NCBI RefSeq assembly: GCF_023016525.1
Contig: NZ_JALKCG010000009.1
Coordinates: 1 to 64,000 of the forward strand
DNA: 64,000 bases
Reading direction: 5' to 3'
From: Ancylobacter koreensis
GTDB lineage: Bacteria; Pseudomonadota; Alphaproteobacteria; Rhizobiales; Xanthobacteraceae
Below, piece by piece: positions 1-36,026 of the stretch; positions within the stretch are counted from its first letter, which is position 1; every line of letters starts with the position of its first letter. The notes under the pieces were generated by a model. It made no database searches. It was not told where the DNA came from and saw only the letters and a list, made by a program, of their open reading frames with translations. The translations under genes were made by a program, and so were the position numbers.

Positions 1-1
1 G

Positions 2-55
2 ACCATCGGCTACGTCAGCCCGATGGAGTTCGAGCGGGACGTCGGATTAGCTTAA
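2..55 (+). pseudogene. C-terminal tail of an IS3-family transposase (OrfB), cut by window edge
   Basis: The open frame entering the window reads T-I-G-Y-V-S-P-M-E-F-E-R-D-V-G-L-A then stop. This is the typical end of IS3-family OrfB integrases, where a Y-x-S/T-P-x-E-F/Y-E motif closes the catalytic domain. The sequence after the stop, up to about base 85 (ending ..GCAGCAGGCCA), resembles the terminal inverted repeat of such an element and ends in CA. Homology to the neighbouring cysE fragment begins right after it. Only 17 residues are visible, so the subgroup and whether the element is intact are unknown. It is not the same element as the one at 16.1-17.3 kb, whose OrfB ends differently. Confidence 0.7.
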
Positions 56-85
56 CTGCGCGTCCACGAAACCGGCAGCAGGCCA

Positions 86-378
86 ATCGTCTCCGAGGTC
101 AGCCCGGATTGGCCATAATGCGCCGGAAACAGTGCGGCAGCCAAGCCCTTCAGCGCCTCGGTGATCGCCTCGCGGGAGGGCGGCGGGCGCAAGCGCCCGC
201 GATGGCGGATATTGTGGGTGACATCGCGCGACTGCCGCAGCGCCGCGACGATCTCATCAAGGTTCCAGCCAGCGCTAAGGGCTTCCCCGGAGTCTCTGGC
301 CGGCGTCGCTGGTAGCCCGGCGAGGTCGCCAAGGGATGTCGAAGACCTCGCCCACCCGTCGATCCCTAAATCACCCAC
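86..378 (-). pseudogene. cysE: Truncated serine O-acetyltransferase (CysE/EpsC-type), N-terminal helical part only
   Basis: From a GTG at 378 the frame encodes about 97 residues that look like the N-terminal helical domain of EpsC-type serine acetyltransferases. The features seen are W-N-L-D-x-I-V-A-A-L-R, then a stretch rich in R and P, then L-F-P-A-H-Y-G and L-T-S-E. The family continues for about 200 more residues with the hexapeptide-repeat catalytic domain, which is absent here. Homology stops at base ~86, where the IS3 end starts, and the frame then runs into the IS DNA to a stop at 52-54. The fragment cannot make acetyl-serine. Its presence suggests that the locus once held a cysteine-synthesis gene next to the sulfur-type operon downstream. 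The start codon is uncertain. Confidence 0.65.
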
Positions 379-431
379 AGAAAACGCTCCCCTGCGCGAC
401 GGTCCGGCCGTCGGCTGACGGCATCAAAGGA

Positions 432-1196
432 CTAGGGCAGATACATTCCACCGTTCACATGGATGGTCTGGCCGCTGGTAAAGCTGCCGGCGGGCAGGGC
501 GAGGATGCGCACGAACTCGGCGACGTTGCGCGGCTCGCCTTCGTGCCCGACCAGCAGATGACCGCCGCCCGGGAACGCGCCGCCGGCGCCCGAGGTCGCC
601 GAGCGGTTGCCGCCGATGCGCCCCGGGACGACGAGGTTGGCGGTGATGCCACGTTCGCCGAACTCAACCGCGAGCGCCTTGGTGAAGCCGACCAGTGCCG
701 CCTTGGCGGTAGCGACATGGACGCGGTGGAACACGCCGGAATGCGCACTGACGCCGCCAATGGTGACGATGCGGCCGAAGCCGTGGCGAACCATGTGCGG
801 GATCGCGGCACGGGTGACGAGGAAGGCGCCCTCGACGATCACCGAATTGATCTCGCGCCATGCGGCCAGGCTGATCTCGGCGAACGGCGTCTCGCGCCGG
901 ATGGCGGCGTTGTTGACGAGGATATCCAGACGGCCGTGGGCCGCGACGATTTCGTCGACGAGGCCCTGCGCCTGCGACTCATCGGTGATGTCGGCGAGCA
1001 CCGTGCTGGCGCTGCCCCCGACCGCGCGGATCTCGTCGGCCACCGCCTCGATTTCGTCCCTGGACGTCTTGGCGTGGACCACGACATGGGCACCCTCTGA
1101 CGCCAGCAGCAGTGCGCTTTCGCGGCCGATGCGACGGGCCGAGCCGGTGACGAGGGCGACCTTGCCGTCGAGAGGTTTGTTCTGGGGCGAACTCAT
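432..1196 (-). CDS. SDR-family protein lacking the usual catalytic Ser/Tyr
   Basis: A 254-residue short-chain dehydrogenase/reductase and the last gene of the nine-gene operon. The NAD(P) motif T-G-S-A-R-R-I-G is at residues 17-24, N-N-A-A at 95-98, and a T-I-H-V-N-G-G segment lies near the C-terminus. The catalytic Tyr of YxxxK is replaced: Lys165 is kept but position 161 is Val (H-V-A-T-A-K). The usual Ser stretch reads I-G-G. Some SDRs, such as 2,4-dienoyl-CoA reductases, also lack the Tyr, so the protein may reduce another bond type or have a non-catalytic role. The ATG at 1196 is preceded by AAAGGAAA. A longer frame upstream overlaps the rhodanese gene and is rejected. Confidence 0.85.
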   Translation of the reverse strand: MSSPQNKPLDGKVALVTGSARRIGRESALLLASEGAHVVVHAKTSRDEIEAVADEIRAVGGSASTVLADITDESQAQGLVDEIVAAHGRLDILVNNAAIRRETPFAEISLAAWREINSVIVEGAFLVTRAAIPHMVRHGFGRIVTIGGVSAHSGVFHRVHVATAKAALVGFTKALAVEFGERGITANLVVPGRIGGNRSATSGAGGAFPGGGHLLVGHEGEPRNVAEFVRILALPAGSFTSGQTIHVNGGMYLP

Positions 1197-1216
1197 CGTT
1201 TCGATTTCCTTTTGCG

Positions 1217-2812
1217 TCACAGCCGGAACTGCAGCGTGCCGTCGCGGCGCACTTGTTCGACCAGGTCGAGTTCCCACTGCAGATATTCCCGCATCGCCGC
1301 CTCACGGTCTTCGCGGCGCTCGAAGGATTTGAGCAGCACGTCATCGGTCCGGGAGGCGAGGTTCTCCGGCGTGGTCTCCAGCGGAAGGCCGGCCCTGCTC
1401 CAGGCGTCGGTGCCACCGGCCAGCAGCTTCACCACGGCACCGGTCGCCTGCGCCAGCTCGGCCACCGCGAGGCGTGCTATCACCTCGTCGGGCGAGGTGA
1501 CGACGTAGAGCTTTGCTGCGGGCAGCTTCGACGCATCCGTCGCCAGCCGGCCGCGCACGGCGAACCACGCGCCGGGAATGTGGCCGGCGCGGTACTGCCG
1601 GCTGGTGGCGATATCCACCACGATGATGTCGCCCTGCGCCAGAAGCGCGGAGAGTTCGGCGGCGGTGACGGTCTCGGCGCTGGCTCCATCAAGACCGAGA
1701 ACGATCTCCGGTGCGGCGCCGGTCTCGACGCGGCCCGTCGGGGCGTTCTCGTCGAGCACATAGACATTGGGGAAGCCGAGCCTCGCGAGCCACGCCGCCG
1801 TGCTGCGGGCCCGCACGCCGTCGCTGTCAGCCAGCACAATGCGCGCCGATCGCACGGCGATATAGGTGTCGGTGGCCTGCACCAGCTGGCCGCCGGGCGC
1901 CGAGAAGAAGCCCGGGCGATGGCCATGACGGTACTCGTCGGTGCCGCGCACGTCGAAGCGGTAGAGCGTGGTCTCGTCGCGCTCCGTCTCGAAGCGGGCG
2001 AGCGTCGCCGCGCCGATGGTCGGCACGTTGAGGCGCGTGGCCAGCGCCTCGGCGGCCTTGCGTGCCCAGTCATGGGTTCTGGGAGAGGGCTTTGGTGCGA
2101 TCTGGTCCTGGCCGCGCGCGACGTCCAGGCCCGCCAGATGCCAGCCCTGTGTGCCGTCCTTGAGTGACACCACGCGGTTGGGCAGGCTGGCGTCGATCAA
2201 TATCTGAGCGCCGATGATCGAGCGGGTGCGTCCGCCGCAATTCACCACCACCAGCGTCTCGTCGGACGGAATGACCTCGCGGGCACGCAGCACCAGCTCG
2301 GCGCCGGGGCAATCGATGGCGCCGGGAATGGTGATCCAGTTGTACTCGTCATAAGGCCGGCTATCGAGTAGCACGATGTCCTCGCCAGCGGCGCGGCGGG
2401 CCTGCAGTTCGTGCGCGTCGATATGCGGGGTCGCGTACTCCACCTCGACGAACTCGGCGAAGGCCTTGCTCGGCACATAGACGCCGGCGAACAGCTCGAA
2501 GCCGGCGCTCTTCCATGCCGGTACGCCGCCGCGCAGGATCGACACGTCGTCATAGCCATGCGCGCGAAGCAGGCCGGCGGCGCGGGTGGCCAGCGTCTCT
2601 TCGTCATCCACCAGCACGATCGGGGTGGCGCGGCGCGGCACCAGCGCCGGGACGATGCGCTCGAAGCGGGAGATCGGAGTGTTCGAGGCGGTCAGGATGT
2701 GCGCGCTGGCGAACACGCCTTCCTCGCGCACGTCGAGCAGGGCGATCTCGGTGTCACCGGAGAGGGTGGCATGCAGGGTGGCGGCGTCGATGCGGGGAAA
2801 GTTGGCGCTCAT
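1217..2812 (-). CDS. Four-domain rhodanese-like sulfurtransferase
   Basis: 531 residues containing four consecutive rhodanese folds, at roughly 5-110, 125-235, 265-355 and 375-480, plus a charged helical tail (E-R-R-E-D-R-E-A-A-M-R-E-Y-L-Q-W). Only domain 2 has a catalytic-loop cysteine (N-C-G-G-R-T-R-S, Cys192). The equivalent loops of domains 1, 3 and 4 carry Asp or Thr/Ser (L-V-D-D, L-A-D-S, V-V-T-S), so those domains are probably structural or binding modules. Such proteins move sulfane sulfur to cyanide, thiols or acceptor proteins. Its position inside the operon with two DszA/NtaA-type monooxygenases suggests handling of sulfur released from an organic substrate, which is inference. The ATG at 2812 is chosen because the rhodanese homology starts there. 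Confidence 0.85.
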   Translation of the reverse strand: MSANFPRIDAATLHATLSGDTEIALLDVREEGVFASAHILTASNTPISRFERIVPALVPRRATPIVLVDDEETLATRAAGLLRAHGYDDVSILRGGVPAWKSAGFELFAGVYVPSKAFAEFVEVEYATPHIDAHELQARRAAGEDIVLLDSRPYDEYNWITIPGAIDCPGAELVLRAREVIPSDETLVVVNCGGRTRSIIGAQILIDASLPNRVVSLKDGTQGWHLAGLDVARGQDQIAPKPSPRTHDWARKAAEALATRLNVPTIGAATLARFETERDETTLYRFDVRGTDEYRHGHRPGFFSAPGGQLVQATDTYIAVRSARIVLADSDGVRARSTAAWLARLGFPNVYVLDENAPTGRVETGAAPEIVLGLDGASAETVTAAELSALLAQGDIIVVDIATSRQYRAGHIPGAWFAVRGRLATDASKLPAAKLYVVTSPDEVIARLAVAELAQATGAVVKLLAGGTDAWSRAGLPLETTPENLASRTDDVLLKSFERREDREAAMREYLQWELDLVEQVRRDGTLQFRL

Positions 2813-2870
2813 CTTGTTCTCAACCTGGTGGGAGAAAGGCGCCTCCCGTTCGGGAAGGGCCTGCGGCCAA

Positions 2871-3944
2871 TCACTGGCGGTTGAAGACCGCGTCGAACTG
2901 CTCGAGGAACTTCGTCGAGGCCTCGCCGCCGATATCCTGGTCCGCGACAATGATCTTCAGGTCGGCGAGCTTGGGCAGGCCTTCCGGCGTCTTCGCGTCG
3001 GGATGGGTCGGGATGTAGGAGCCGGTATTGGCGACGAGTTCCTGACCCTCGGCGCTGGTCAGCACCTCTTCCAGCAGCTTGGCTGCCGTGGGGTTCGGGC
3101 CGCCCTTGAAGATGGCGAGGTAGTTCTCGTTGGTGACCACGCCATCCTCTAGGATGTAGGCCTCGATGCTCTGGCCCTTCTCCTTTGCGGTGATGACGTT
3201 CTGCGACGAGATCAGCGGCGACAGATCACGCTCGCCCGCCACCAGCAGGCGCACCGATTCCGCATTGCCGCGCGTGAACAGGAAATCCTGCTTGGCGAAG
3301 CCCTTGATGGTGTCCCAGGTGATGATCTTGTGGGCCAGAAGCGTCTGGAACCAGGTGAGCTGCGAGGCCGCCGACTGCGGGTCGGAGAACACGATCTTGC
3401 CCTTCCACTTCGGGTCGAGGAAGTCGGCGATCTTCTTCGGCAGTACCGATTTGTCGGGGAAGGCCTTGGGGTTGTAGGCGGCGGACAGCAGCGTCGCGGC
3501 GGTGGCGAGGTAGGCGCCGTCGGCATCCTTGTAGTTGCCGCCGATCTTGCCGAAGTCGCGCACCTTGTAGGGCGTGAGGTAGCCGCGCTTCTTCCAGTCG
3601 TCGAGAATGAAGCGCTGGCTGATGAACACCACGTCCGGATTGGTGCGCCCCGCCGCCTTTTCCGCCTCGATGGTAGGGATCAGGTCGAGCGTCTGCTTCT
3701 GTACGATGTTGAGCTTCACATCAGGGAAGTTCTTGCGCCAGAACTCCAGCACCTGGGTGCTCGTTTCCTGCCGGTACGATGTGTAGAACACCACCGAGCC
3801 TTCCTTCTTCGCGGCCTCATAGAGGTCCTTGAAGCGCTCCGGTAGCGTGTCGGCGCGGGCAGGGGCGAACGAGGTGGCGAGCGAGCCCGCGATTAGCAGC
3901 GCGGCGGCTGCGCCCTTAAGCAGGGTTCTCTTATTGAGGGGCAT
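2871..3944 (-). CDS. ABC transporter substrate-binding protein, ferric/thiamine/phosphonate-type
   Basis: 357 residues with a Sec signal peptide: K-R-T-L-L-K, a hydrophobic stretch, and a likely cut after A-P-A-R-A near residue 31. The mature part has the extracellular-binding-protein-1/AfuA-like pattern: V-V-F-Y-T-S-Y near the start, then N-P-D-V-V-F-I-S-Q and a polar C-terminal lobe. Relatives bind Fe3+, thiamine, 2-aminoethylphosphonate or small organic anions, so the ligand cannot be read from sequence. The Y-Y pair typical of ferric-binding proteins is not evident, which argues mildly against iron. Its partners are the fused permease and the ATPase upstream in the same operon, separated from it by two enzyme genes. 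Confidence 0.85.
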   Translation of the reverse strand: MPLNKRTLLKGAAAALLIAGSLATSFAPARADTLPERFKDLYEAAKKEGSVVFYTSYRQETSTQVLEFWRKNFPDVKLNIVQKQTLDLIPTIEAEKAAGRTNPDVVFISQRFILDDWKKRGYLTPYKVRDFGKIGGNYKDADGAYLATAATLLSAAYNPKAFPDKSVLPKKIADFLDPKWKGKIVFSDPQSAASQLTWFQTLLAHKIITWDTIKGFAKQDFLFTRGNAESVRLLVAGERDLSPLISSQNVITAKEKGQSIEAYILEDGVVTNENYLAIFKGGPNPTAAKLLEEVLTSAEGQELVANTGSYIPTHPDAKTPEGLPKLADLKIIVADQDIGGEASTKFLEQFDAVFNRQ

Positions 3945-3967
3945 TTCAGTCTCCTAGGGTCAAATGA

Positions 3968-5356
3968 TTAGGCGGCGGCAGACGTTTTCGCAGCCGTATG
4001 CTCGGCTGCGGCGTCGATCGCCTTGGTGTGCTTGTGGTGACGATCGGGGCGCTTGAGCCCGAGATGCTCGCGCAGGGTCCGGCCCTCATAATCGGTACGG
4101 AACAGGCCGCGCCGGCGCAGTTCGGGCAGCACCAGTTCGATGAAGTCGGTGAGGCCGCCTGGCAGGTAGGGCGGCATGACGTTGAAGCCGTCGGCGCCCT
4201 CGTTGAGGAAGCGCTCCTCCATCTTGTCGACGATCTGCTCCGGCGTGCCGATCACCTGCCAATGGCCGCGCGCGCCGGCGACCCGTAGGCCGAGCTGCAG
4301 GATCGACAGCCCCTCGCGCTGGGCGAGTTCCAGCAGCAGCACCTGCCGGCTCTGCGCGGCATTGGTGACCGGGATGCCGGTGGGCAGCGGGCCGTCCAGC
4401 GGGAGATGGCGCAGCGGGATGCCGAGGCGATGCTCAAGGATGGAGAGCGCGACATCCGGGTGGATGAGGTTCTGCAGTTCCTCGAACTTCGCCTGTGCTT
4501 CCGCCTCGGTGCGGCCGACCACCGGGAAGATGCCCGGCATGATCTTGACGTCGTCCGGGGAACGCCCGGCGGCGACGGCGCGGGCCTTCACGTCGCGGTA
4601 GAACGCCTGCGCGTCGGCAAGGGTTTGCTGCGCGGTGAAGACGACCTCGGCGGAGGCACCGGCCAACGCCTTGCCGGCCTCCGACGAGCCGGCCTGCACC
4701 AGCACCGGCCAACCCTGCGGCGAGCGCGGAATGTTGAGCGGCCCACGCACGCCAAAATACTCGCCGCGATGATCGAGGCTGTAGACCTTGTCGGGATCGA
4801 AGAAGACGCCGCTGTCCTTGTCGCGGACGAAGGCGTCGTCCTCCCATGAGTCCCACAGCCCCTCGGTGACTGCGAGGAACTCGGTAGCGCGGCGGTAGCG
4901 CTCGTCGTGCGGGGGATGGCGGTCGCGGCCGAAATTATAGGCCTCACCCTCATTGCCCGAGGTGACGAGGTTCCAGCCGGCGCGCCCGCCGCTGATATGG
5001 TCGATGGAGGCGAATTTGCGGGCCAGCGTGTAGGGCTCGTTATAGGTGGTGGAGGCGGTCGCCACGAGACCGATCCGCTCGGTGACGGCCGCCAGTGCGC
5101 CGAGCAGCGTCAGCGGCTCGAACTGCGCCACGTAATGGGTGGAGAAGCGCGCCAGCGCGCCCCAGTCCTCGCCGCGAGCTCCGGCGCTGTCGGCCAGGAA
5201 CAGCATATCGAACTTGGCGGCCTCGGCCGCCTGCGCGATCTCGGCGTAATGCTTGAAGTTGATGCCGGCATCGGCCTGCGCCTCCGGGTGGCGCCAAGCG
5301 GCGGCGTGGTGGCCGGTGGGGTAGAGAAAGGCGCCGAGCGCCATCTGCTTGGTCAT
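3968..5356 (-). CDS. NtaA/SnaA/DszA-family FMNH2-dependent monooxygenase (copy 1)
   Basis: A 462-residue bacterial-luciferase-fold (LLM class) oxidoreductase of the nitrilotriacetate/dibenzothiophene-sulfone monooxygenase family. Visible family marks are G-A-F-L-Y-P-T-G-H-H-A-A-A-W-R at the N-terminus, A-S-T-T-Y-N-E-P-Y near residue 100, H-I-S-G-G-R-A-G-W-N-L-V-T-S, and G-W-P-V-L-V-Q-A-G-S-S at about 240. Members use reduced FMN supplied by a separate reductase to split C-S or C-N bonds. No flavin reductase gene is present in the operon. The ATG at 5356 aligns with copy 2 and lies 8 nt after the flavoprotein stop. The last ~25 residues are Ala/His-rich. The substrate is unknown. Confidence 0.88.
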   Translation of the reverse strand: MTKQMALGAFLYPTGHHAAAWRHPEAQADAGINFKHYAEIAQAAEAAKFDMLFLADSAGARGEDWGALARFSTHYVAQFEPLTLLGALAAVTERIGLVATASTTYNEPYTLARKFASIDHISGGRAGWNLVTSGNEGEAYNFGRDRHPPHDERYRRATEFLAVTEGLWDSWEDDAFVRDKDSGVFFDPDKVYSLDHRGEYFGVRGPLNIPRSPQGWPVLVQAGSSEAGKALAGASAEVVFTAQQTLADAQAFYRDVKARAVAAGRSPDDVKIMPGIFPVVGRTEAEAQAKFEELQNLIHPDVALSILEHRLGIPLRHLPLDGPLPTGIPVTNAAQSRQVLLLELAQREGLSILQLGLRVAGARGHWQVIGTPEQIVDKMEERFLNEGADGFNVMPPYLPGGLTDFIELVLPELRRRGLFRTDYEGRTLREHLGLKRPDRHHKHTKAIDAAAEHTAAKTSAAA

Positions 5357-5364
5357 GGGAAACC

Positions 5365-6933
5365 TCAGGCGGCTGTGAGTTCGGAGGGGAGGGCGGCGGG
5401 CTGCTGTGCGGCGGCGTCCTTGCCGGCGATCTGGCCGGTGACGAAGCATTCCGCGAGATTGCCGGCGCCGAGATAGAGAAAGCCCCAGATGCTGCCGAGC
5501 TCGCCGGCCTCATAGAGCCCGGGAATCGGCTCGCCATGGGCGTTGAGTACGCGCTGGCGGGCGTCATGCGCCGGGCCGCCTTGGGTGTTGCTGACCACCG
5601 GCCACAGCTCGCCGACATAGAAGGGCGGGTTCTTCACGGGGAACAGCGAGCCAGCCGGGCGGTTGTGGTCGCCGTCCGTGCCGGCCTCGACCGCCGCATT
5701 CCAGCGCGCGAGGCTCGCCGCGACCGTGGCGGGATCGGCATCGATCAGCGCGGCGAGTTCGTTGATGCTGTCGGCGCGCTTCAGGATGCCGTTGCCGACC
5801 TCCTTCAAATTATCGTCGCTCCACTCATAGGGCTCGACCGAGCGATCATTGATCACTGTCTGGCCGAGCGGGTAGAGCTTGCGTCCGTCCTCATCCACCA
5901 CAAGGAAGGCGGGGATGCGCGGGAAGCGCTGCGACTGCGCGTCATACTGGTCGAGCGGCCGGTGGCCGGTGTCCTGGATATAGGGCTGGTACTCGTTCAT
6001 GAAGCGCCGGCCCTGGCGATCCAGCACGATCCAGGACATGCGCACGTCCGGCTCCTGCAGCTGCGGCGTCCAATCCGGCAGTTTCTTGACCCGAAGGCCA
6101 TAGGGATAGGCCGGGTCGGTGTGGCGGAAGCCATAGGAACCGTGGAAGTGCCACATGTGCCAAAGGTCGGCGCCGGCGGCCTGCGCCATGCGGATGCCGT
6201 CGCCGGTATTTCCACGCGTGGCGACCGGAAGGACCGGGCGGATCTGCCAGTATTTGCGCTGCAGATCGGGCGCGGCCTCGAAGCCGCCGGAGGCGAGGAT
6301 GACGCCGCGCCGTGTGCCGATGCGCTTCACCTCGCCATTGGAGCAGATGATGGCGCCAAGCACTTCCCCGTTGGCGCCGAGGATCAGCCGTTCGGCGGCC
6401 GTATCGAGGCGTGTCTCGATGCCGCGCGCCCGGACATTGTCGTGCACCAGCTTGAACACGTTCGGCCCGCGCAGCCGGCCCCGCACCTGCGGGTACTCAG
6501 TACGCGCATCGAAGCCGGGGATGGATAGCACCTCCACCGTGCCGAAGGCGTCGTTGCCCGTGAACGGGTAGTTGGCAATTCGGCGGTGTACGGCGATCTC
6601 GGCGCCGTTCACCTTGGCGAGGTCGCGGAAATAGGGCTCCAGCTCGGCCATGCCGGAAGCGACCGCATCGAGCACGTCACCCGGCACGTCGGGGCCAACC
6701 GTCTCGCGCAGATAGGCGCGGGCGCCGTCGCGCTCGACGATGGTGCGAATGCCGCCGCCGGCGCAGATCGAGATGCCGCCGGGATCGGGCTGCTTCTCGA
6801 TCAGCAGCACACGCGCGCCGGCATCATGGGCGGCGATCGCCGAGGCGCCGCCGGCAAAGCCGAAGCCGACGACGAGCACGTCCCAGACTTCGTCGAAGGG
6901 CGGGGTGGATGTGTTGACAGGCATGGCGGGCAT
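5365..6933 (-). CDS. FAD-dependent oxidoreductase, fumarate reductase/ketosteroid dehydrogenase-like flavoprotein
   Basis: 522 residues of the FAD_binding_2 family. The Rossmann motif is V-V-G-F-G-F-A-G-G-A-S-A near residue 20, followed by a Glu-Lys (L-I-E-K) that binds the ribose and P-G-G-I-S. The C-terminal half has G-G-P-A-H-D and closes the FAD site with G-L-Y-E-A-G-E-L-G-S and G-N-L-A-E-C-F. Family members add or remove hydrogens across C=C bonds (fumarate, urocanate, 3-ketosteroids). There is no signal peptide, so the protein is cytoplasmic. It is located between the transporter genes and monooxygenase copy 1 with gaps of 5 and 8 nt, so it is surely in the operon. The start may instead be the second Met, three codons in. 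Confidence 0.85.
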   Translation of the reverse strand: MPAMPVNTSTPPFDEVWDVLVVGFGFAGGASAIAAHDAGARVLLIEKQPDPGGISICAGGGIRTIVERDGARAYLRETVGPDVPGDVLDAVASGMAELEPYFRDLAKVNGAEIAVHRRIANYPFTGNDAFGTVEVLSIPGFDARTEYPQVRGRLRGPNVFKLVHDNVRARGIETRLDTAAERLILGANGEVLGAIICSNGEVKRIGTRRGVILASGGFEAAPDLQRKYWQIRPVLPVATRGNTGDGIRMAQAAGADLWHMWHFHGSYGFRHTDPAYPYGLRVKKLPDWTPQLQEPDVRMSWIVLDRQGRRFMNEYQPYIQDTGHRPLDQYDAQSQRFPRIPAFLVVDEDGRKLYPLGQTVINDRSVEPYEWSDDNLKEVGNGILKRADSINELAALIDADPATVAASLARWNAAVEAGTDGDHNRPAGSLFPVKNPPFYVGELWPVVSNTQGGPAHDARQRVLNAHGEPIPGLYEAGELGSIWGFLYLGAGNLAECFVTGQIAGKDAAAQQPAALPSELTAA

Positions 6934-6938
6934 TCCGG

Positions 6939-9817: not shown

Positions 9818-9852
9818 GGCGAACTCCGGGTACGCGTCGTCTTGAGGATGGT

Positions 9853-11187: not shown

Positions 11188-11207
11188 GGCAGTCGTCCTG
11201 AGAACGC

Positions 11208-12191: not shown

Positions 12192-12225
12192 CGCTGAGAA
12201 CCTCCGTAATTCGGCACGATCCTAA

Positions 12226-12247
12226 ATTGACATTTCCAATTGTCGAT
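12226..12247. promoter_or_regulatory. Inverted repeat between divergent tctC operon and tctBA, possible operator
   Basis: ATTGACA, eight bases, then TGTCGAT form 7-bp arms with one mismatch. The left arm contains a good -35-like TTGACA for the tctBA direction, with only a weak A/T-rich -10 region 17-18 nt further on. The location midway between two divergent start codons fits a shared operator. No regulator gene is adjacent. Confidence 0.4.
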
Positions 12248-12281
12248 AGAAAATATGGACTAATGAGTTTGGAGATTGCCA

Positions 12282-14242: not shown

Positions 14243-14325
14243 GGAGAACGGACGTCCATGACCGTCGTCACGATCCGGCATAGGATGCTGCCCGGATCCT
14301 TTCCGTTCAGTACCGAGTACCAAAC

Positions 14326-15075: not shown

Positions 15076-15143
15076 CGGCGAAGCGCGGGCGCGCGTTGTG
15101 GCGGAACCGCGTCACCGCTAATGGGCCGGAAGGTCTGCAGTGC

Positions 15144-15890
15144 TCACTGCGTCAGCAGGCTCGCGATGAACTGGCGCGTGCGCTCCTTAATCGGATTCGC
15201 GAACAGCGCGCGGGCCGGGCCGGTCTCGACGATGTGGCCGCCGTCCAGAAACGCGACTTCGCCGGCGATATTGGCCGCGAGCCGCAGGTCATGGGTCGCT
15301 ATCAGCATGGTGGTGCCCTCGCGCGCCAGTTGCGCGATGACTTCCACCACCTCCTCGGCAAGCTCCGGGTCGAGCGCGGAGGTCGGCTCGTCGCACAGCA
15401 GTACTTTCGGCGCCGGGGCGAGAGCGCGCGCGATCGCCACGCGCTGCTGCTGGCCGCCGGACAGCTGCGCCGGCCAGGCGTCGGCCTTGTGGGCGAGGCC
15501 GACCTTGTCGAGCAGCTCCAGCGAGCGGGCCCGGGCCTTCGCCTCCGGCCATTTCAGCACCGTGACGAGGCTCTCCATGACATTGCCCAGCGCGGTGCGG
15601 TGCGGGAATAGCTGGAAGTTCTGGAACACCATGCCGGTCTGGCGCCGCACCCGCAAAATCGCGTCGCGCTCCGGCCGCTTGCCGGGCACGAATGTTACAC
15701 GGTCCCCGCCAATGACCAGCTCGCCGGCCTGCGGGATTTCCAGCAGGTTCACGCAGCGCAGCAGCGTGCTTTTGCCCGAGCCGGACGGGCCGATCAGCGC
15801 GGTGACACTGCCCTCGGCAATTCTAAGGCTGACGGATTTGAGGACGGAGAGCTCGCCGAAGCTCATCTCGATGTCGGTGAGCGCAATCAT
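15144..15890 (-). CDS. Polar amino-acid-type ABC transporter ATP-binding protein
   Basis: A 248-residue ATPase of the GlnQ/HisP group: Walker A G-P-S-G-S-G-K-S at 34-41, M-V-F-Q-N-F-Q-L-F-P-H (typical of this group), L-S-G-G-Q-Q-Q-R, Walker B V-L-L-C-D-E-P-T-S-A-L-D-P, and switch histidine T-H-D. It follows the permease remnant with a four-base ATGA overlap, so it was the second gene of an importer operon. With the permease cut by the IS, this ATPase probably has no working partner here unless it serves another permease. Confidence 0.9.
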   Translation of the reverse strand: MIALTDIEMSFGELSVLKSVSLRIAEGSVTALIGPSGSGKSTLLRCVNLLEIPQAGELVIGGDRVTFVPGKRPERDAILRVRRQTGMVFQNFQLFPHRTALGNVMESLVTVLKWPEAKARARSLELLDKVGLAHKADAWPAQLSGGQQQRVAIARALAPAPKVLLCDEPTSALDPELAEEVVEVIAQLAREGTTMLIATHDLRLAANIAGEVAFLDGGHIVETGPARALFANPIKERTRQFIASLLTQ

Positions 15891-16091
15891 GACGACGCTT
15901 TCACGAAGCCGCCATAGCGTCCGAAATGGCCCTCCAGCCGCACCTGCAGGGCGGAGAGCACCGAAGACAGCGCCAGATAGATCAGCGCGGCCTCGATATA
16001 GATGATCAGCGGCTCATAGCTGGTGGCAACGATGCGCTGCGCCGCCTGGAACAGCTCCGGCACTGTCACGGCGGCGGCCAGCGAGGTGTCC
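15887..16091 (-). pseudogene. C-terminal remnant of an amino-acid ABC permease, cut by IS element
   Basis: About 68 codons remain. They begin Q-D-T-S-L-A-A-A-V-T-V-P-E-L-F, which matches the K-D-T-S-L segment late in HisM/GlnP-type permeases, and run through the last membrane segment (I-E-A-A-L-I-Y-L-A-L-S-S-V-L-S-A-L) to the stop. The N-terminal two thirds are missing, and the DNA on the far side of the IS is unrelated (an Rrf2 gene). An internal ATG at 16069 could give a 60-residue product, which would not be a functional permease. Confidence 0.8.
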
Positions 16092-16145
16092 TGAGACCCT
16101 TTTCTCCTCCGGCTTAGACAAGAGTCCGAGGGTTGATTTGTGGCC

Positions 16146-17022
16146 TCAGGCGGCCGCGGTTTCCAGTGCGATTGTTGCCGCGAACTCGGCAGGGGATCGA
16201 TTGCCGAGAGCTGAATGGGGGCGGTTCACATTGTAGTCCTCCCTCCATGAGGCGATGGCGGCACGGGCCTGACCAAGGTTCGAGAACAGGGTCTCGTTCA
16301 GGCACTCGTCCCGGAAGCGACCGTTGAAGCTTTCGACGAAGCCGTTCTGCATCGGCTTGCCGGGAGCGATGTCGTGCCATTCGACGCCAGTCTGCTGGCA
16401 CCATTTGAGAACTGCCATCGAGGTCAGTTCGGTGCCATTGTCCGACACGATGGTCGAAGGCTTGCCCCGAACAGCCATGACCGCGTCCAGCTCGCGTGTC
16501 ACCCGAAGGCCCGAGAGCGAGGTGTCGGCGACCAGCGCCAGGCACTCCCGGCTGAAGTCGTCGACCACGGCCAGCACCCGGAAACGCCGTCCGTCCGTGA
16601 AGGCATCCGACACGAAGTCGAGGTTCCAGCGGACATTGATCCGATCCGGCACCAGGATGGGACGCCTCGTACCGAGCGCTCGCTTGCGTCCTCCGCGGCG
16701 GCGGACCTGAAGCTTCTTCTCCCGATACAGCCGGCGCAGCTTCTTCTAGTTCATGACGATACCCTGGCTTCAGCATGATGTGGATCCGCCGCCTTACGGC
16801 AATTGCAGGCAATTGCCTGCCGGCCAAGGGATAGCCGAAGCGGCGGCGCTCGCCCGCCACGGCCCGCATGGCCTCCCGCAGACTGGCATCGTAGTAACGG
16901 ATGCTGCGGTAACGCACGCTGGTGCGATCGACGCCCAGCGCCTTGCACGCCCGACGCTGGCTCACCCCGTGCGCCGCACAGGCATGAGCCACGGCTTTGC
17001 GCCTCGCATCGGGCGTCACCAT
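16146..17022 (-). pseudogene. IS3-family OrfB transposase, disrupted
   Basis: The N-terminal part starts at ATG 17022 (V-T-P-D-A-R-R-K-A-V) in a frame overlapping the orfA end. After F-G-Y an extra block of about 39 bp encodes P-L-A-G-R-Q-L-P-A-I-A before the expected R-R-I-H-I-M-L. A one-base shift and an in-frame TAG follow near 16745-16760. The catalytic DDE part is intact in the new frame, from about 16740 to 16146: [15 protein letters not shown] and F-V-E-S-F-N-G-R. With both a shift and a stop, no full-length transposase is made. A 168-residue C-terminal piece from 16652 remains open. Confidence 0.85.
16790..16830. repeat. Extra palindromic block inside OrfB
   Basis: A perfect 16-bp palindrome, GCAGGCAATTGCCTGC (16805-16820), overlaps a tandem GGCAATTGC repeat (16798-16806 and 16808-16816). 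The whole block sits where related OrfB proteins run directly from F-G-Y into R-R-x-H-I. It therefore appears to be an insertion into the IS, perhaps by slippage at the palindrome. Confidence 0.55.
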
Positions 17023-17279
17023 TTTGAGCTGACATCCCTCAGGATCGCGTTGTCGAGCATCTGTTCCGCCAGCAGCTTCTTCAGCCGCGCATTCTCCTCC
17101 TCAAGCGCCTTCAGCCGCCGGGCATCGGACACGCCCATGCCGCCGAACTTAGCCTTGAACTTGTAGAAGGTCGCCGAGGAGATGCCGTGCTTGCGGCAGA
17201 CGTCAGCGGTCTTAGCGCCCGCCTCCTGCTCCTTCAGCATCCCGATGATCTGTTCCTCTGTGAACCGTGAGGCTCGCAT
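17016..17279 (-). CDS. IS3-family OrfA (helix-turn-helix subunit of transposase)
   Basis: 87 residues of the HTH_Tnp_1 family: R-F-T-E-E-Q-I-I-G-M-L-K-E-Q-E-A-G at the start, a C-R-K-H-G-I-S-S-A-T-F-Y-K-F-K recognition helix, then a leucine-zipper-like coiled coil (L-K-A-L-E-E-E-N-A-R-L-K-K-L-L-A). It ends with A-A-A-A-T-G-G-T-G-A in the DNA, where OrfB begins in the -1 frame, as in elements that use programmed frameshifting. It appears intact, but its OrfB partner is broken. Confidence 0.9.
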   Translation of the reverse strand: MRASRFTEEQIIGMLKEQEAGAKTADVCRKHGISSATFYKFKAKFGGMGVSDARRLKALEEENARLKKLLAEQMLDNAILRDVSSKW

Positions 17280-17353
17280 CGTCCGTCTCCATGATCGACG
17301 GACTCTACCTAAATCTGCAGGAGGATCAGGGTCTCAGGTCAGCGCGGCCCGGC

Positions 17354-17842
17354 TCAGATGCGATACATTAGGTCGATGTCGGCATTCTCGGCATAGGTCA
17401 TCATGTCTTTCCGCCACATGCGGTGGAGAATATCCGACATCGCGTCCTGCACCTTGGTCATGGTGATACGCACTGCACAGGAGCCAACATCGCGGCAATC
17501 CTGGCAGGGCACATAGGCACTCTTGCTGGCACAGCCGATTGGCGCCAGGGGCCCGTCGAGCACGCGAATGATGTGCCCGACCCGGATGTCGGAGATGGAG
17601 CGCGCAAGCGTATAGCCACCGCCCGACCCCTCGCGCGAGCGTAGCATTCCAGCATGGCGCAGATCGAGCAGAATGGCATCCAGGAATTTCTTGGGAATGC
17701 TATTGGCGTCGGCAATTTCCTGTCCGCCCAAACTGGTGCCCGGCGCTTGCGCCGCCAGGTGCAGCACCGCCTTGAGGCGATACTTGCCCCGGTTCGTCAG
17801 GGTAGATGATCCGTCCTCAAAGCCTGCTGGGGCGCATACCAC
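17354..17842 (-). CDS. Rrf2-family transcriptional regulator with four-cysteine cluster
   Basis: A 162-residue Rrf2 protein. The winged helix-turn-helix is at about 15-85: T-N-R-G-K-Y-R-L-K-A-V-L-H-L-A near the start, then I-P-K-K-F-L-D-A-I-L-L-D-L and G-S-G-G-G-Y-T-L-A. Next comes C-x8-C-x2-C-x5-C (G-C-A-S-K-S-A-Y-V-P-C-Q-D-C-R-D-V-G-S-C), which could hold an Fe-S cluster as in IscR/NsrR relatives. It lies downstream of the Ssu-type ABC genes on the same strand and is a plausible regulator of sulfur or redox supply for them. The GTG at 17842 is the first usable start; a shorter start near T-N-R-G-K-Y is likely, as family members begin there. Confidence 0.82.
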   Translation of the reverse strand: MVCAPAGFEDGSSTLTNRGKYRLKAVLHLAAQAPGTSLGGQEIADANSIPKKFLDAILLDLRHAGMLRSREGSGGGYTLARSISDIRVGHIIRVLDGPLAPIGCASKSAYVPCQDCRDVGSCAVRITMTKVQDAMSDILHRMWRKDMMTYAENADIDLMYRI

Positions 17843-17939
17843 ATATGCCGAGCGCTCCCAGATGTGCCAGTAATGGGGCAGATGTTCAATCGAGCGAGTT
17901 TGGTGACGCAGAGAGGACCTTGCTGCGGTGCGCCAACTC

Positions 17940-18752
17940 TCAGGCTTCTTGTCCCCAGCGCTGCACGGTCAGACGGTTGAGCGTGGAGAAGACCAGGCTC
18001 TCGACGGCCAACCCGATTAGAATCACGGTCAGCAAGCCGGCGAAGACATTGGCGGTTTCGAGCTGAGAGCGGTTGACGAAGATGAACCAGCCGAGGCCAC
18101 CCTCTCGCGCACTCGCCCCGAACACCATTTCGGCTGCGATCAGCGTACGCCAGGCGAAGGCCCAGCCGAGGCGCAGTCCCGACAGGATGGACGGTAGCGC
18201 AGCGGGAATCAGCAGCCCGACGACATAGGACGGGCCGGTGAGCCCGATGTTGCGTCCCGCCATGCGCAGCGTCGGCGGCACGGCGCGAAAGCCCGCGTGA
18301 CAGGCGAGCGCCAAGGGCCAGAGCACTGAATGGACGATGACGAAGACGAGGCTGGAGGCGCCGACACCGAACCACAGCAGCGCCACGGGAAGAAGAGCGA
18401 TCGCGGGCAGCGGATTGAACATCGCCGTCAGCAGCCCCAGCAGGCTCTCGCCCCAGCGGCTCAGCGCGGCCAGCGCGGTGATGATCGCGGCGACGCCAAT
18501 GCCGATGCCGTAGCCGGTGAGCAGGATGCCGAGCGAGGCGCGCACCCGCTCGGGAAGTTCGCCGTTGCGCAGGTTCTCCCACAAGGCCACCAAGGTCTCC
18601 AGAAAGCTTGGCAGCAGAAGCGAGTTTCCCAGCCAGCGGGCATAGGACTCCCAGATCAGGGCAAGTCCCACGAGGATGACGAGACGGCGTGCGCGGGGTC
18701 CCAAGGTGAAAGGGGCGGGGCGGGCGGACGTCGAGAGGGTGCTTTCAGACAT
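17940..18752 (-). CDS. ABC transporter permease, SsuC/TauC/NrtB type
   Basis: 270 residues with about six membrane segments and the family EAA-like loop (A-G-R-N-I-G-L-T-G-P-S-Y-V-V, then I-P-A-A-L-P-S-I-L-S-G-L-R). The pattern S-L-G-I-L-L-T-G-Y-G-I-G and the closing V-E-S-L-V-F-S-T-L are typical of aliphatic sulfonate, taurine and nitrate importers. It overlaps the ATPase stop by 8 nt. With an SsuD-like monooxygenase divergently encoded, the likely substrate class is alkanesulfonate or a similar organosulfur compound. Confidence 0.88.
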   Translation of the reverse strand: MSESTLSTSARPAPFTLGPRARRLVILVGLALIWESYARWLGNSLLLPSFLETLVALWENLRNGELPERVRASLGILLTGYGIGIGVAAIITALAALSRWGESLLGLLTAMFNPLPAIALLPVALLWFGVGASSLVFVIVHSVLWPLALACHAGFRAVPPTLRMAGRNIGLTGPSYVVGLLIPAALPSILSGLRLGWAFAWRTLIAAEMVFGASAREGGLGWFIFVNRSQLETANVFAGLLTVILIGLAVESLVFSTLNRLTVQRWGQEA

Positions 18753-19632
18753 TGTGAGTAACCTCGAGGCGGGGACGAGCGTCCGTCCTGGCCGCTAGAC
18801 TGGCGGCGGATTTTGCCTCCGGCAGCGCCGCGCCGAAGATGCGCTGCTGGATCTCCATCTCCAACCGTCCGAAATCGGGGGTGCCCCGCTGCCGCGCTGC
18901 ATCGGGCACGGAATATTCCGCCCCGATCCGGCCGGGATGCGGCGTCATGACCAGTACGCGGGTGCCCACATGCAGCGCCTCGTCGATGGCGTGGGTGACG
19001 AAAAGGCAGGTGGCGCCGGTCTCCTCGCACAGGTCCAGCAGCTCGTCCTGCATGCGCCGCCGAGAGAGCGCGTCGAGCGCAGCAAAGGGTTCGTCCATCA
19101 GCAGGATCGCCGGCTGCACGGCGAAAGCACGGGCGATGGCGCAGCGCTGTTTCATACCGCCTGACAAGGTGTGCGGATAGGCATCGGCAAAGCCGCCGAG
19201 ACCGACGCGTCCCGCCCAGTCGCGCGCGCGTTCAAACGATTCAGCCCGACCTAGGCCACGGGCGCGGCGAAGGGCAAAGGCAATGTTCCCCGCCACCGTC
19301 CGCCAGGGCAGAAGCTGGTCGAATTCCTGGAACACCACCATGCGGTCGGGTCCCGGCGCGCGCACCGGCGCGCCATGGAGCCTGATTTCGCCGGAACTGG
19401 TCTTGAGGAAGCCGGCCACGGCGCGCAGCAGCGTGGACTTGCCGCAGCCCGAGGGGCCGAGCAAAGCCAGTCGCTCGCCGGCGCCGATGGTGAAGGACAC
19501 ATCCTCTACCGCCGTGACCGTTCCGGCATCGGTTTGGTAGCGCAGAGTAACGTGCTCCACCGCCAGCGGCGGCGGGCCACCGGCCGCCGGCTGGTTCTGC
19601 GGCGGGAGCCAACCCACCGGCTCAGCTCCCAT
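18745..19632 (-). CDS. ABC transporter ATP-binding protein, SsuB/TauB/NrtD type
   Basis: A 295-residue ATPase: Walker A G-P-S-G-C-G-K-S at 59-66, Q-loop F-Q-E-F-D-Q-L-L-P-W, signature L-S-G-G-M-K-Q-R (typical for Ssu/Tau/nitrate ATPases), Walker B I-L-L-M-D-E-P-F-A-A-L-D, and T-H-A-I-D-E-A. A C-terminal extension of about 50 residues is present, as in some family members. The ATG at 19632 overlaps the binding-protein gene by 11 nt; the much longer frame upstream is the complement of coding sequence and is rejected. Confidence 0.9.
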   Translation of the reverse strand: MGAEPVGWLPPQNQPAAGGPPPLAVEHVTLRYQTDAGTVTAVEDVSFTIGAGERLALLGPSGCGKSTLLRAVAGFLKTSSGEIRLHGAPVRAPGPDRMVVFQEFDQLLPWRTVAGNIAFALRRARGLGRAESFERARDWAGRVGLGGFADAYPHTLSGGMKQRCAIARAFAVQPAILLMDEPFAALDALSRRRMQDELLDLCEETGATCLFVTHAIDEALHVGTRVLVMTPHPGRIGAEYSVPDAARQRGTPDFGRLEMEIQQRIFGAALPEAKSAASLAARTDARPRLEVTHNV

Positions 19633-20632
19633 TGCGTGCGTGCAGGCCCGGCTGGAACAGTTCTTTCCAGCTCGGCTTCTGCTTGATGAGGCCGATGCGG
19701 TGTTCAAAGTCGACGAACACCTCCACCCGCTCCGGTACGGTCGTAAAGCGGATCTGTGGGTCCCGGATGATGGCCTCGATAAAACCGGGATCCAGCTTCG
19801 ACTTCTCGGCAGCGATATAGAGGGCGGCGGCGTCCTTCGGGTTCGCCTTGATCCACTCATTGGCCTCGTCCAGCGCGGCGACGAAGGCATCGACGGTCTT
19901 GGGGTTGTCCAGCGCAAACTTCTTCGTGCCGTAGACGACGTTGAAGGTGTGCGGGCCGCCGAGCACGTCGTAGCTGTTCAGCACCGCATGAACCTTGTCG
20001 TTCTGCAACTGCTGCTCGAAAAACGGCGGCGAGGTGAAGTGGGCCGTGATGCCGCCGGTCCCGGAGAGGATTGAGGCCGTCGCATCCGGATGTGGCAGGC
20101 TCACGGTGAGATGATCGAGCTTGTCGTACTGGCCGAACGTCTTTTCGGCGGCGATCTGGAGCACAATCGGCTGGAACCCGACCTTGACCGAGGGCAGGGC
20201 GATGCGATCGGTATCGGTGAAGTCCTTGATTGTCTTCACGTTCGGGTTGTTGGTGGTCAGCACATTCGGCATTGAGCCGAGCGCGGCGATCAGCAGGATG
20301 TCGGTTTTGCCGCGCGTCTTGTCCCAGGTGAGGATCGCCGGAGCAACGCCGGCCGTCGCGAAGTCGAGGCCCCCGGAAATCAGCGAATCGTTCATGGCGG
20401 CCGCACCGGAGAGGCGCAGCCACTCGACCTTCAGATCCTTCACGCCCGCCGTTCCGGCGTGTTTTTCGATCAGCTTCTGCTCCTTGGCGACGATCAGGGG
20501 CAGATAGGCGATGCCGAATTGCTGGGCGATCCGCAGCTCACCCGTTTCCGCGCGGGCGGAGGAAACGGAAGCTGGCCCGGCGGGCCACGCGAGTGACAAT
20601 GTGGCGGCAGCGAGCAGGGCGCGATAGCGCAT
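19622..20632 (-). CDS. ABC transporter substrate-binding protein, SsuA/NMT1-like
   Basis: 336 residues. There is a signal peptide (R-Y-R-A-L-L, a hydrophobic run, A-R-A near residue 28), then L-R-I-A-Q-Q-F-G-I-A-Y-L-P and the NMT1/SsuA-like lobes: S-G-A-A-A-M-N-D-S-L-I-S-G-G-L-D-F, and A-S-I-L-S-G-T-G-G-I-T-A-H-F. First gene of a three-gene importer operon that diverges from the SsuD-like gene across a 114-bp region. The ATG at 20632 has GGAG upstream. The ligand is inferred from context only. Confidence 0.86.
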   Translation of the reverse strand: MRYRALLAAATLSLAWPAGPASVSSARAETGELRIAQQFGIAYLPLIVAKEQKLIEKHAGTAGVKDLKVEWLRLSGAAAMNDSLISGGLDFATAGVAPAILTWDKTRGKTDILLIAALGSMPNVLTTNNPNVKTIKDFTDTDRIALPSVKVGFQPIVLQIAAEKTFGQYDKLDHLTVSLPHPDATASILSGTGGITAHFTSPPFFEQQLQNDKVHAVLNSYDVLGGPHTFNVVYGTKKFALDNPKTVDAFVAALDEANEWIKANPKDAAALYIAAEKSKLDPGFIEAIIRDPQIRFTTVPERVEVFVDFEHRIGLIKQKPSWKELFQPGLHARNGS

Positions 20633-20671
20633 GGGAGAGGCTCCGTGACTAGGGGTGACGGACAATCTGGG

Positions 20672-20702
20672 CTTTATTCTATAAAGTCAATGGACTATAA
20701 AG
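20672..20702. promoter_or_regulatory. Repeat block in divergent promoter of Ssu-type genes
   Basis: CTTTAT-TCT-ATAAAG (20672-20686) is an inverted repeat. Its right half, CTATAAAG (20679-20686), recurs exactly at 20695-20702, a 16-nt step. The block is A/T-rich against G/C-rich surroundings and lies between the binding-protein and monooxygenase start codons, as expected for an operator or promoter. The regulator is unknown; the nearby Rrf2 protein is a candidate. Confidence 0.45.
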
Positions 20703-20746
20703 ACTGCCCTCCGCACACCCCGGGCGCTCAGAGGACGTGGATTGTA

Positions 20747-21835
20747 ATGAGCCGTAGCGACTTCCTTTGGTACATCCCCAATGACGTGAAGCCCGGCCAT
20801 CGCGGCGACGTGCCGGCGTCGAACGCGGGGAGCCTCGATAGCCTGACCGATCAGGCGAAGGCACTTGAAGAGTACGGCTGGAGCGGTGCGTTGATCGGTA
20901 CCGGTTGGGGGCGGCCAGACACCTTTACGGTCGCAGCGGCGCTTGCTGCGCGCACCACCCGTTTCGAGCCCCTGATCGCCATCCGTCCCGGCTATTGGCA
21001 GCCGGCCCAGTTCGCCTGTGCGGCGGCAACGCTTGACCAACTCTCGGATGGCCGCACCCGTTTCAACATCGTCTCGGGCAAGGACAGCCTCGCCGCCTAT
21101 GGCGACAGCGAGGGAGATGCCACGCAACGCTACGCGCGCACGCGTGAGTTCATGCGGCTGGTGCGCCGACTCTGGACCGAGGAAGACGTCACCTTCAGTG
21201 GCGACTACTTCCAGGTCGCGGGCGCAACGGTCGAGCCGCGCATCACCGCGCGCGGCGCCCGGCTGCACCCGCGCTTCTACTTCGGCGGGGCCTCCGCGGC
21301 GGCCGAACGCGTCGCGGCGACCGAGGCGGATGTCCAACTCTTTTGGGGGGAGCCGCGCGACGGCGTGGCCGAGCGGATCGAACGTCTGAAGGCCTTAGGC
21401 CGCACGCTGGACCGGAATCTCCCGCCTCTCGAGTTCGGCCTGCGCATCACGACGCTGGTGCGGGACACGACGGCGCAAGCCTGGGCCGACGCCGAGGCAA
21501 AGGTGGCGGAGATGGCCAGAACCGGAGGCGCCGGCTGGCAGGATCACAGGGGCCCGGCCGCCGTTGGTCAGCAGCGCCTGCTCGACCTGCATCATCGCGG
21601 CGACGTGCTCGACGACAATCTCTATACGGCTCCGGGCAAGTTCGGCGGTGGTGGCGCCGGCACGACCTGGTTGGTCGGTTCGGCCGAGGACGTCGCCGGT
21701 TCGCTTCGAAAATACCAGGACCTCGGCATTACTCAGTTCATACTGTCCGATACGCCCTATCTGCGCGAGATCAAGCGGCAGGGAGAAACGCTGCTGCCTC
21801 TGCTGTCGCGACCTAACCTTTCTCTCGTCTACTAA
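20747..21835 (+). CDS. ssuD: SsuD-like FMNH2-dependent alkanesulfonate monooxygenase
   Basis: A 362-residue LLM-class flavin monooxygenase closely following the SsuD pattern: F-L-W-Y-I-P at the start, G-W-S-G-A-L-I-G-T-G, A-I-R-P-G-Y-W-Q-P-A-Q-F-A, L-D-Q-L-S-D-G-R-T-R-F-N-I-V-S-G, and V-G-Q-Q-R near residue 270. Near the end are G-G-A-G-T-T-W-L-V-G and P-Y-L-R-E. SsuD cleaves alkanesulfonates to aldehyde and sulfite using reduced FMN from SsuE; no ssuE is seen. It diverges from the Ssu-type ABC operon. The ATG at 20747 is supported by AGGA upstream. Its stop overlaps the 3' end of the recombinase remnant by four bases. Confidence 0.82.
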   Translation: MSRSDFLWYIPNDVKPGHRGDVPASNAGSLDSLTDQAKALEEYGWSGALIGTGWGRPDTFTVAAALAARTTRFEPLIAIRPGYWQPAQFACAAATLDQLSDGRTRFNIVSGKDSLAAYGDSEGDATQRYARTREFMRLVRRLWTEEDVTFSGDYFQVAGATVEPRITARGARLHPRFYFGGASAAAERVAATEADVQLFWGEPRDGVAERIERLKALGRTLDRNLPPLEFGLRITTLVRDTTAQAWADAEAKVAEMARTGGAGWQDHRGPAAVGQQRLLDLHHRGDVLDDNLYTAPGKFGGGGAGTTWLVGSAEDVAGSLRKYQDLGITQFILSDTPYLREIKRQGETLLPLLSRPNLSLVY

Positions 21836-22706
21836 GACGCTCTCGCTGCCCGGATAGTGTGGAGCGCCTCCGGCTTGAGGTGCGTATAGCGCCGCAGCAT
21901 CTTCCAGTCCTTGTGGCCGGTCACGAGCGCCACCTGATCGATGGTGAAACCTGCCTCAAACAGCCGGCTGGTGCCTTCGCGGCGCAAGTCGTGGAAATGC
22001 AAGTCCTCGATCTTGAGGTCTTGGCACTGCCGACGAAACGCAGTGCCGACCGAGCGGCCGTTGTAAGGGAAGATGCGGCCTTCTCGACCGCTTGAGCAGC
22101 GGGCTTGCTCCTCGATGATCTCACACGCGTCATAACCCGACACATCGAGCAGCGGGATGCGCTGATGGTTGCCGTCCTTCCTGCGCGGGTCCTTGCGATC
22201 TCGAATGAGCAGCATCCCCGTTCGCAGATCGAAGTCACGCCATTCGACCCGGCAGATTTCTTCCTGACGCATGGCCGTAGCTGCGGCAAAGCGCACGATC
22301 CTTCCGACGGGGATGCTTTGCCGAGGGTTCTCGTCCAGCGCCGTGAGGATGCGGTCAAGTTCGTCCTGCGTCGGCCGGCGATCCCGCTCCTTGCATTTGA
22401 TGAGGCGCTCGCGGTCGATCTCGGCGATCTTCAGGGCGCCGAGCCCTCGTCAAGAGCTGTAAGGCAGAAGCCCTTGGAACGGCCGATCCTGCCCCCCACT
22501 TCAGCCATGTCCTGGCGGTGAAGCGCGACGAGATCGCGGAAGCGCTTCGCGTCACGCGACTTGCGCGTGACAGCGGGTTCCTGGCGATCGATGCGACGCT
22601 CCATGTCGAGCGCCCACTCCTCGGCATCCTTGCGGCGCAGGAACGTCTCGTTGACGTACTGCCCCTTCCGGCAGATATGGGCTCTCCAGAAGCCGCATTT
22701 TAGTTT
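21832..22706 (-). pseudogene. Tyrosine recombinase (phage/island integrase), frameshifted with internal deletion
   Basis: The catalytic half (22296-21832) is clear: A-T-A-M-R-Q-E-E-I-C-R-V-E-W with the first Arg, H-D-L-R-R-E-G with the H-x-x-R box, T-G-H-K-D-W and the nucleophile Tyr in R-R-Y-T-H-L. Upstream, in another frame, lies an Arm/core-binding-like start (F-W-R-A-H-I-C-R-K-G-Q-Y, K-D-A-E-E-W-A). Near 22443 one base must be inserted to rejoin L-G-A-L-K-I-A-E-I-D-R-E-R-L-I. That segment then runs straight into K-E-R-D-R-R-P-T-Q-D-E-L-D, where related integrases, from memory, have about 50 more residues. It is therefore probably dead. It sits immediately upstream of dusA, the known target of dusA-associated integrases. 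Confidence 0.8.
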
Positions 22707-22834
22707 AGTGAAAGCGAACGGCCCGTGTGCGCAGCCTGTGCGTTCACGCGTCGAACGAGAAGGAAGCCGGAGCGTGTCGTGGCAAGGGATCGCGTGCCCA
22801 CGACGTGGCCCAACGCCCTGAAATTTCATAAATA

Positions 22835-22900
22835 ATGTCGAAATATCGCTCGTTCAGATTCTCCGTTGCCCCCATGATGGACTGGACCGACCGGCATTGC
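22835..22900. other. Probable attachment site (attR side) of a dusA-targeting island
   Basis: The start of dusA, including the codons for A-P-M-M-D-W-T-D-R-H-C, is the published target zone of dusA-associated integrases. A recombinase remnant ends just upstream, and base composition changes across this point. The matching left copy was not seen within the window, so it should lie upstream of base 1. The exact crossover bases cannot be fixed without it. Confidence 0.5.
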
Positions 22901-33657: not shown

Positions 33658-34773
<1,116 letters not shown>

Positions 34774-34795
34774 GGCATCGCTGATTAGCGTGACG

Positions 34796-36018: not shown

Positions 36019-36026
36019 GGAAGGAT

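Follow-up and report, generated by a model that had tools for sequence, protein, structure and literature searches.

We analysed a 64,000-nucleotide stretch of Ancylobacter DNA, hereafter the window, which corresponds to positions 1-64000 of contig C19 (123,022 bp) in a draft assembly of 4.06 Mb and 19 contigs. The DNA to the left of the tRNA-dihydrouridine synthase gene dusA is, with high probability, the right-hand portion of an integrative island, composite in make-up and now decayed, of the kind associated with dusA integrases. An earlier note on this DNA had proposed that an integrase of this type inserted the island at the 5' end of dusA. The proposal is borne out by second attachment (att) copies in four congeners, a step in sequence identity at the junction, a near-empty site in the closest genome and a displaced native-type dusA start in another congener. 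The right end of the island is the att core at 22871-22881 inside dusA and not position 22834, where the junction was first placed; the left junction lies outside the window. The elements at the right junction are the following:

21832-22722, minus strand: broken tyrosine integrase of the dusA type (Pfam PF00589 on 21832-22296; amino acid and DNA alignment to the orthologue in congener G009)
22713-22870, plus strand (-122 to +35): island-type dusA leader and first codons (alignment to congener leaders; anchored score)
22835-23836, plus strand: dusA, tRNA-dihydrouridine(20/20a) synthase, the target gene (NCBIfam PRK11815.1/TIGR00742 above cut-off; Pfam Dus)
22871-22881, plus strand, inside dusA: att core (attR) CCNATGATGGA, the stretch common to attL and to dusA in congeners

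The target gene matched the NCBIfam DusA equivalog with E=5e-152, and the closest named relative of its product is from Ancylobacter polymorphus (86% amino acid identity). Second copies of the dusA start were searched for in 30 congener genomes with a pattern that allowed one mismatch; the same panel underlies the counts of left-end signatures, leaders and cargo below. Four congeners carried such a copy upstream of dusA, with attL-to-dusA intervals of 11.0 kb (G012), 24.1 kb (G015), 24.9 kb (G009) and 91.5 kb (G011). In all four, the core CCNATGATGGA is shared; beyond it the sequence no longer follows dusA but an island left end common to these genomes. This left end contains a 20-bp signature that was found once each in 4 of the 30 genomes, the same four, again with one mismatch allowed. 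At the right end, the first 12 dusA codons (22835-22870) fall on the island side of the core. The second dusA 5' copy predicted by the earlier note is therefore present in congeners, while the window's own genome yielded none. In G003, a second dusA start lies on another contig (C2:420270, L226), near the contig end; it matches the G003 dusA start and is followed by a stop codon. It may represent an attL used by another dusA integrase (L141, 39% identity).

Pairwise comparison of the window's own genome (G000) with congeners revealed a step in identity at the junction. Window positions 86-16092 matched the dusA island of G011 at 94.5% identity over 16.0 kb, and positions 17341-22398 matched it at 93.6%; most of the latter stretch also matched G009 (94.0%), G004 (93.7%) and G043 (93.3%). 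In contrast, dusA after the core showed DNA identities of 80.3% (G011), 82.1% (G004) and 87.0% (G009), and the main pieces downstream of dusA matched G011 at 74-88%. The step was located across the integrase N-terminus and the leader. Such a pattern, with cargo at 93-95% beside dusA at 80-87% and the step at the junction, is expected from horizontal transfer into the site. The expected compositional shift was also observed: GC content is 65.8% to the left of dusA, 69.8% at 22835-64000 and 68.7% in the rest of the contig, and all 79 overlapping 22-kb runs to the right of 23 kb had a GC content of at least 67.2%.

Comparison with a strain lacking the island was provided by G010, the genome nearest to the window's at dusA, with 91.7% DNA identity. 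A 33-kb stretch of G010 is collinear with C15:35994-3108 of the window's genome (reverse, 89.1%) and ends 158 bp before dusA, leaving only ~180 bp between dusA and the left flank that is held on C15 in the window's genome. After dusA, G010 follows C19 22856-122468 in pieces and in the same order (matches above 82% and 800 bp), with an inverted piece at C19 44821-47008 as the exception. Relative to G010, the extra DNA between phnE and dusA consists of 3.1 kb on C15, an insertion sequence (IS) element at the gap and 22.8 kb on C19. The phnE gene, whose product matches the PhnE equivalog above cut-off, ends at C15:3111, and the 3.1 kb beyond it has a GC content of 62% and contains a reading frame for a glycosyltransferase, part of which weakly matches a pyruvyl-transferase. 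G010 retains an island-like leader, which suggests that its site probably lost an island and is not pristine. When compared with the window's genome, the G009 left flank yielded nothing beyond paralogue-like matches; the left flank of the window's genome was located through that of G010 instead.

The tyrosine-recombinase remnant that had been noticed directly before dusA is confirmed. The C-terminal part (21832-22296) matches Pfam Phage_integrase with E=4.4e-19, and the 5' end adjoins dusA, the two genes standing back to back. Alignment to the 353-residue G009 integrase covered residues 4-92 at 91% and 166-353 at 95% amino acid identity, and indicated an internal loss of ~171 bp together with a frameshift. 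Open 353-residue frames are present in G009, G011 and G043 at the same spacing from dusA as the window copy; in G004 and G015 the corresponding stretches, read straight through, are interrupted by 2 and 7 stops, respectively. We also considered a chimera of two tandem copies, which was rejected since the N-terminal part is ~90-92% identical in all pairs among G000, G009, G011, G004 and G015 alike. Integrase pieces were detected beside dusA in 14 of 25 Ancylobacter genomes and in 4 of 5 genomes of a second set, that is in 18 of 30, at E<=1e-3; some of these pieces are only 20-25 residues long, and a marginal G022 match was excluded. Beyond the genus, a survey of 80 named alphaproteobacterial dusA loci, within the flanks examined, gave integrase matches of at least 140 residues at 17 loci, 15 of them directly beside dusA and two (L049 and L071) farther away; five further loci contained short relicts (E<=1e-5). 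Xanthobacter oligotrophicus (L018) has an open match beside dusA with 93% identity over 347 residues. Among phage proteins, the G009 integrase is best matched by one annotated as a shufflon-specific recombinase (38.5% identity).

The dusA leader is of the island type. As the earlier note had stated, it is A/T-richer than the gene: GC content is 0.54 over the ~112 nt before the core and 0.71 in the 1-kb interval 23001-24000. These GC figures are all that was kept from an initial free-end-gap comparison, the identities of which were unreliable and were not used; leader identities given here come from a column-based alignment, and leader types from an ad hoc anchored score set against 100 mononucleotide shuffles of each sequence. 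The window leader scored 50 (island-type) against a shuffle maximum of -4. Island-type leaders were assigned by this score to 26 of the 30 congeners, with G021, G017, G002 and G003 below the margin; G007 passed narrowly, and G044, G022, G024, G001, G010 and G008 scored far below the leaders that adjoin integrases. Native-type leaders (G021, G017 and the G009 attL) were not above shuffles by the margin of the anchored score.

The left side of the G009 attL is a native-type dusA leader that matches the G021 leader at 43 of 50 bases (local score 60, shuffle maximum 27) and, more weakly, the leaders of G022 (score 35, shuffle maximum 23) and G001 (score 28, shuffle maximum 21). This start is unlike island leaders, whereas the G009 dusA itself has an island leader. 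The displaced start at the G015 attL is island-type by the anchored score and that of G012 is, by eye, nearly the same as the island leader, which points to stacked insertions; the displaced start of G011 fits neither class. Leader and dusA distances were uncorrelated (r=-0.12 for the 17 best-scoring of the 26 genomes, with scores of at least 44; 1360 of 2000 permutations at or above). We lean slightly towards the view that the dusA start behaves as a swap cassette in Ancylobacter, in which islands repeatedly overwrite the promoter region and first codons and the host keeps the captured start after integrase and cargo decay. If so, the host would run a captured island start, and loss of an island would no longer restore the ancestral dusA start.

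The DNA to the left of the integrase is accessory and IS-bearing, as originally described, with monooxygenases (three of the luciferase-like type in total), an Ssu-type importer, a further ABC importer, TctCBA, rhodanese repeats and an IS-like insert. It is arranged in two modules:

86-16092: left cargo block with a short-chain dehydrogenase, rhodanese repeats, an ABC importer, a flavin adenine dinucleotide (FAD) enzyme, two luciferase-like monooxygenases, TctCBA and an SBP_bac_3 protein (family matches)
16093-17340: IS-like insert (weak IS3 transposase match, below cut-off; ends TGAGACCCT by eye)
17354-20632, minus strand: Rrf2-type regulator, ABC permease, ATPase and SsuA-like binding protein of the right-hand module (family matches)
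20750-21835, plus strand: flavin mononucleotide (FMN)-dependent luciferase-like monooxygenase, alkanesulfonate-monooxygenase-like (Pfam PF00296; NCBIfam alkanesulfonate-monooxygenase match below cut-off)

The right module (17345-21830) was present at 93% identity or more in G009, G011, G004 and G043, and in all four it lies beside dusA (five of five with the window). Its monooxygenase is 96-98% identical in amino acid sequence to the counterparts at dusA in G009, G011 and G004. Diverged, partial matches (at most 83%) occur elsewhere in 11 genomes, one of G014 being at dusA too; 16 of the 30 genomes were matched in all. The left block (positions 1000-15000) was found at 93% or more in G041, G011, G045 and G019, and at dusA only in G011. 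In G014, a diverged copy with 81% identity is present upstream of dusA; further long, diverged copies occur at other places. The binding protein of the left-block ABC importer is of the SBP_bac_8/6 type. G011 contains both modules, in the same order as the window, between a proper attL and dusA. It is collinear with the window on both sides of the IS-like insert and has ~5.5 kb in place of the insert, which may therefore mark an IS-linked deletion. The earlier claim that the cargo arrived as a unit holds for G011, where both modules sit in one dusA island; it is not general, since three of the four other carriers of the left block at 93% or more have it elsewhere.

The strongest alternative is that only the right 5 kb, comprising the integrase and the Ssu/monooxygenase module, belongs to the dusA island and that 86-16092 was added later by IS-mediated or homologous recombination; we give this somewhat less than even weight. 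The left block occurs away from dusA in G041, G045 and G019 at 93-95% identity, with a non-dusA place in G041 reaching 94.9% over 86-16092. G041 and the G011 island share 20.7 kb at 95.9%, and an IS3-family transposase lies just outside the right edge in G041. The near-identical matches at dusA in G009, G004 and G043 stop short of the left block, and an IS end flanks this block in the window. Against a late addition stands G011, with both modules in order between attL and dusA.

A second alternative concerns the orientation of the contig, and involves one further feature:

1-85, plus strand: right end of an IS element at the contig end (IS3-type by eye; second copy only at C19:122938-123022, inverted)

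Window base 1 is thus the contig end and lies inside the IS element, which makes attL unreadable by leftward extension. Left ends, taken to be of the same element, are at C15:1-136 and C14:412-547, the C14 copy with an HTH_Tnp_1 transposase frame. Each IS end occurs twice in the assembly, so that the join of C15 to C19 is parsimonious and not proven. The inverted right ends at both C19 termini form an arrangement that could invert the 123-kb segment. Had the contig been inverted through these two copies, the left end of the window would join C14, with any attL on the far side. We consider this unlikely: the opposed right ends at the C19 termini and the left ends on C15 and C14 would fit it, yet in G010 dusA is directly preceded by the C15 flank and followed by C19 in the same direction. 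That the integrase is an old relict and the left side ordinary, vertically inherited accessory DNA is very improbable, because, common as integrase relicts are beside dusA in the genus and variable as upstream gene content is among most of 25 genomes, this reading is contradicted by the identity step (G000/G011 cargo at 93.6-94.5%, dusA at 80.3%, main downstream pieces at 74-88%), and the closest genome lacks the cargo at that place.

Several observations weigh against assigning the left part of the window to a decayed dusA island, beyond the position of the left block in three of its four other carriers. Beyond the end of the backbone near C15:3108, the DNA is non-homologous and contains no att core. 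The link from C15 through the IS to C19 would be the simplest join, with one through C14 as the alternative. Searches of the own genome with BLAST and three patterns did not recover an attL, the sites they returned looking like chance or housekeeping genes, and the 20-bp left-end signature was likewise not found there with one mismatch allowed. A 16-mer around the att core had no second copy in this genome at 0-1 mismatches. One candidate, C12:593589 (one mismatch), was rejected: it has near-identical counterparts in G010, G013, G014, G018 and G043 and was taken as a conserved gene. The window leader is only 71% identical to the leaders beside the integrases of G009, G011, G004 and G015, which are 88-92% identical among themselves, and is far more diverged than the adjoining integrase (89-98%), which is not what a single recent insertion predicts. 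Among leaders scoring at least 44, its mean distance to the others is 0.327 compared with 0.182 among the others, while the distance of the window dusA is not unusual (0.148 compared with 0.177). Finally, a sigma-70 scan of 22600-22900 gave no promoter-like site in the leader, so that its presumed driving of dusA is argued from its position.

Taken with these points, a decayed composite island remains our preferred explanation, and the following course of events would account for it. Recombination by the integrase would have taken place between an att site on the island and the conserved CCNATGATGGA stretch close to the dusA start. The insertion would have cut off the native start, with the island supplying a leader and the first 12 codons, so that the dusA reading frame stays complete, as judged by comparison with congeners, and is presumably expressed. 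The right module, made up of the integrase, Ssu-like importer and monooxygenase, travels with the dusA site; the left block, present in the G011 island but also elsewhere, was probably joined by IS or homologous recombination. In the window the integrase is broken, and IS-like elements mark both the 5.5-kb loss and the left boundary of the block. The attL has been deleted or lies in the contig gap, and the element is therefore probably immobile now.

The island is a new, decayed member of a published kind. Integrases associated with dusA and the corresponding dusA-specific islands, including the conserved repeats and the replaced dusA start, are described by Farrugia et al. 2015 (PMC4482086). 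Such islands resemble that of the window in having a tyrosine recombinase by the dusA 5' end, semiconserved direct repeats in dusA, a replaced dusA 5' end and variable cargo including metabolic genes, with Alphaproteobacteria on record. The window differs in its broken integrase, in the attL not found in its own genome and in its composite sulfur-type catabolic cargo. The same authors name Rci shufflon recombinases as the closest characterised relatives of dusA integrases; Rci acts on a shufflon and has an extended C-terminus, whereas the site of the window integrase is in dusA. Vibrio dusA-specific SGI1-related elements, for which one tandem pair at dusA is reported (PMC8409611), are gammaproteobacterial and carry other cargo and mobilisation genes. 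A literature search, judged by titles and abstract openings, gave no paper on dusA islands in Ancylobacter. Replacement of the dusA start is itself published; the frequency of apparent start swaps across a genus is a mildly new point. The analysis anchors the dusA integration site within Ancylobacter through congeners whose two junctions are both readable, and shows that catabolic sulfur-type genes move between species at this site. The natural series of open integrase, partly decayed integrase and leader only could be used to test whether an island start can permanently take over a core tRNA-modification gene.

Further observations concern the cargo and the surrounding chromosome. Two luciferase-like monooxygenase genes of the left block (4044-5124 and 9878-10973), 5.8 kb apart, share stretches of 74-79% identity and are an old duplication within the cargo. 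In G001, the DNA found downstream of dusA in the window (24685-64000 and beyond) sits upstream of dusA in inverted order (L133), and G008 (L134) shares the near part; the inverted order in G001 marks the dusA site as an inversion breakpoint as well. The earlier statement that palindromic repeats occur only on the right was not confirmed in a check of exact dispersed repeats, which placed shorter or more diverged palindromes outside its scope: no exact 18-mer occurs at four or more places in the window, and the 20 of 32 right-side repeat families that were viewed included one two-copy repeat of palindromic look (36081 and 54874). The housekeeping side contains gene-sized tandem repeats, threefold at 33725-37222 and twofold at 43168-46149.

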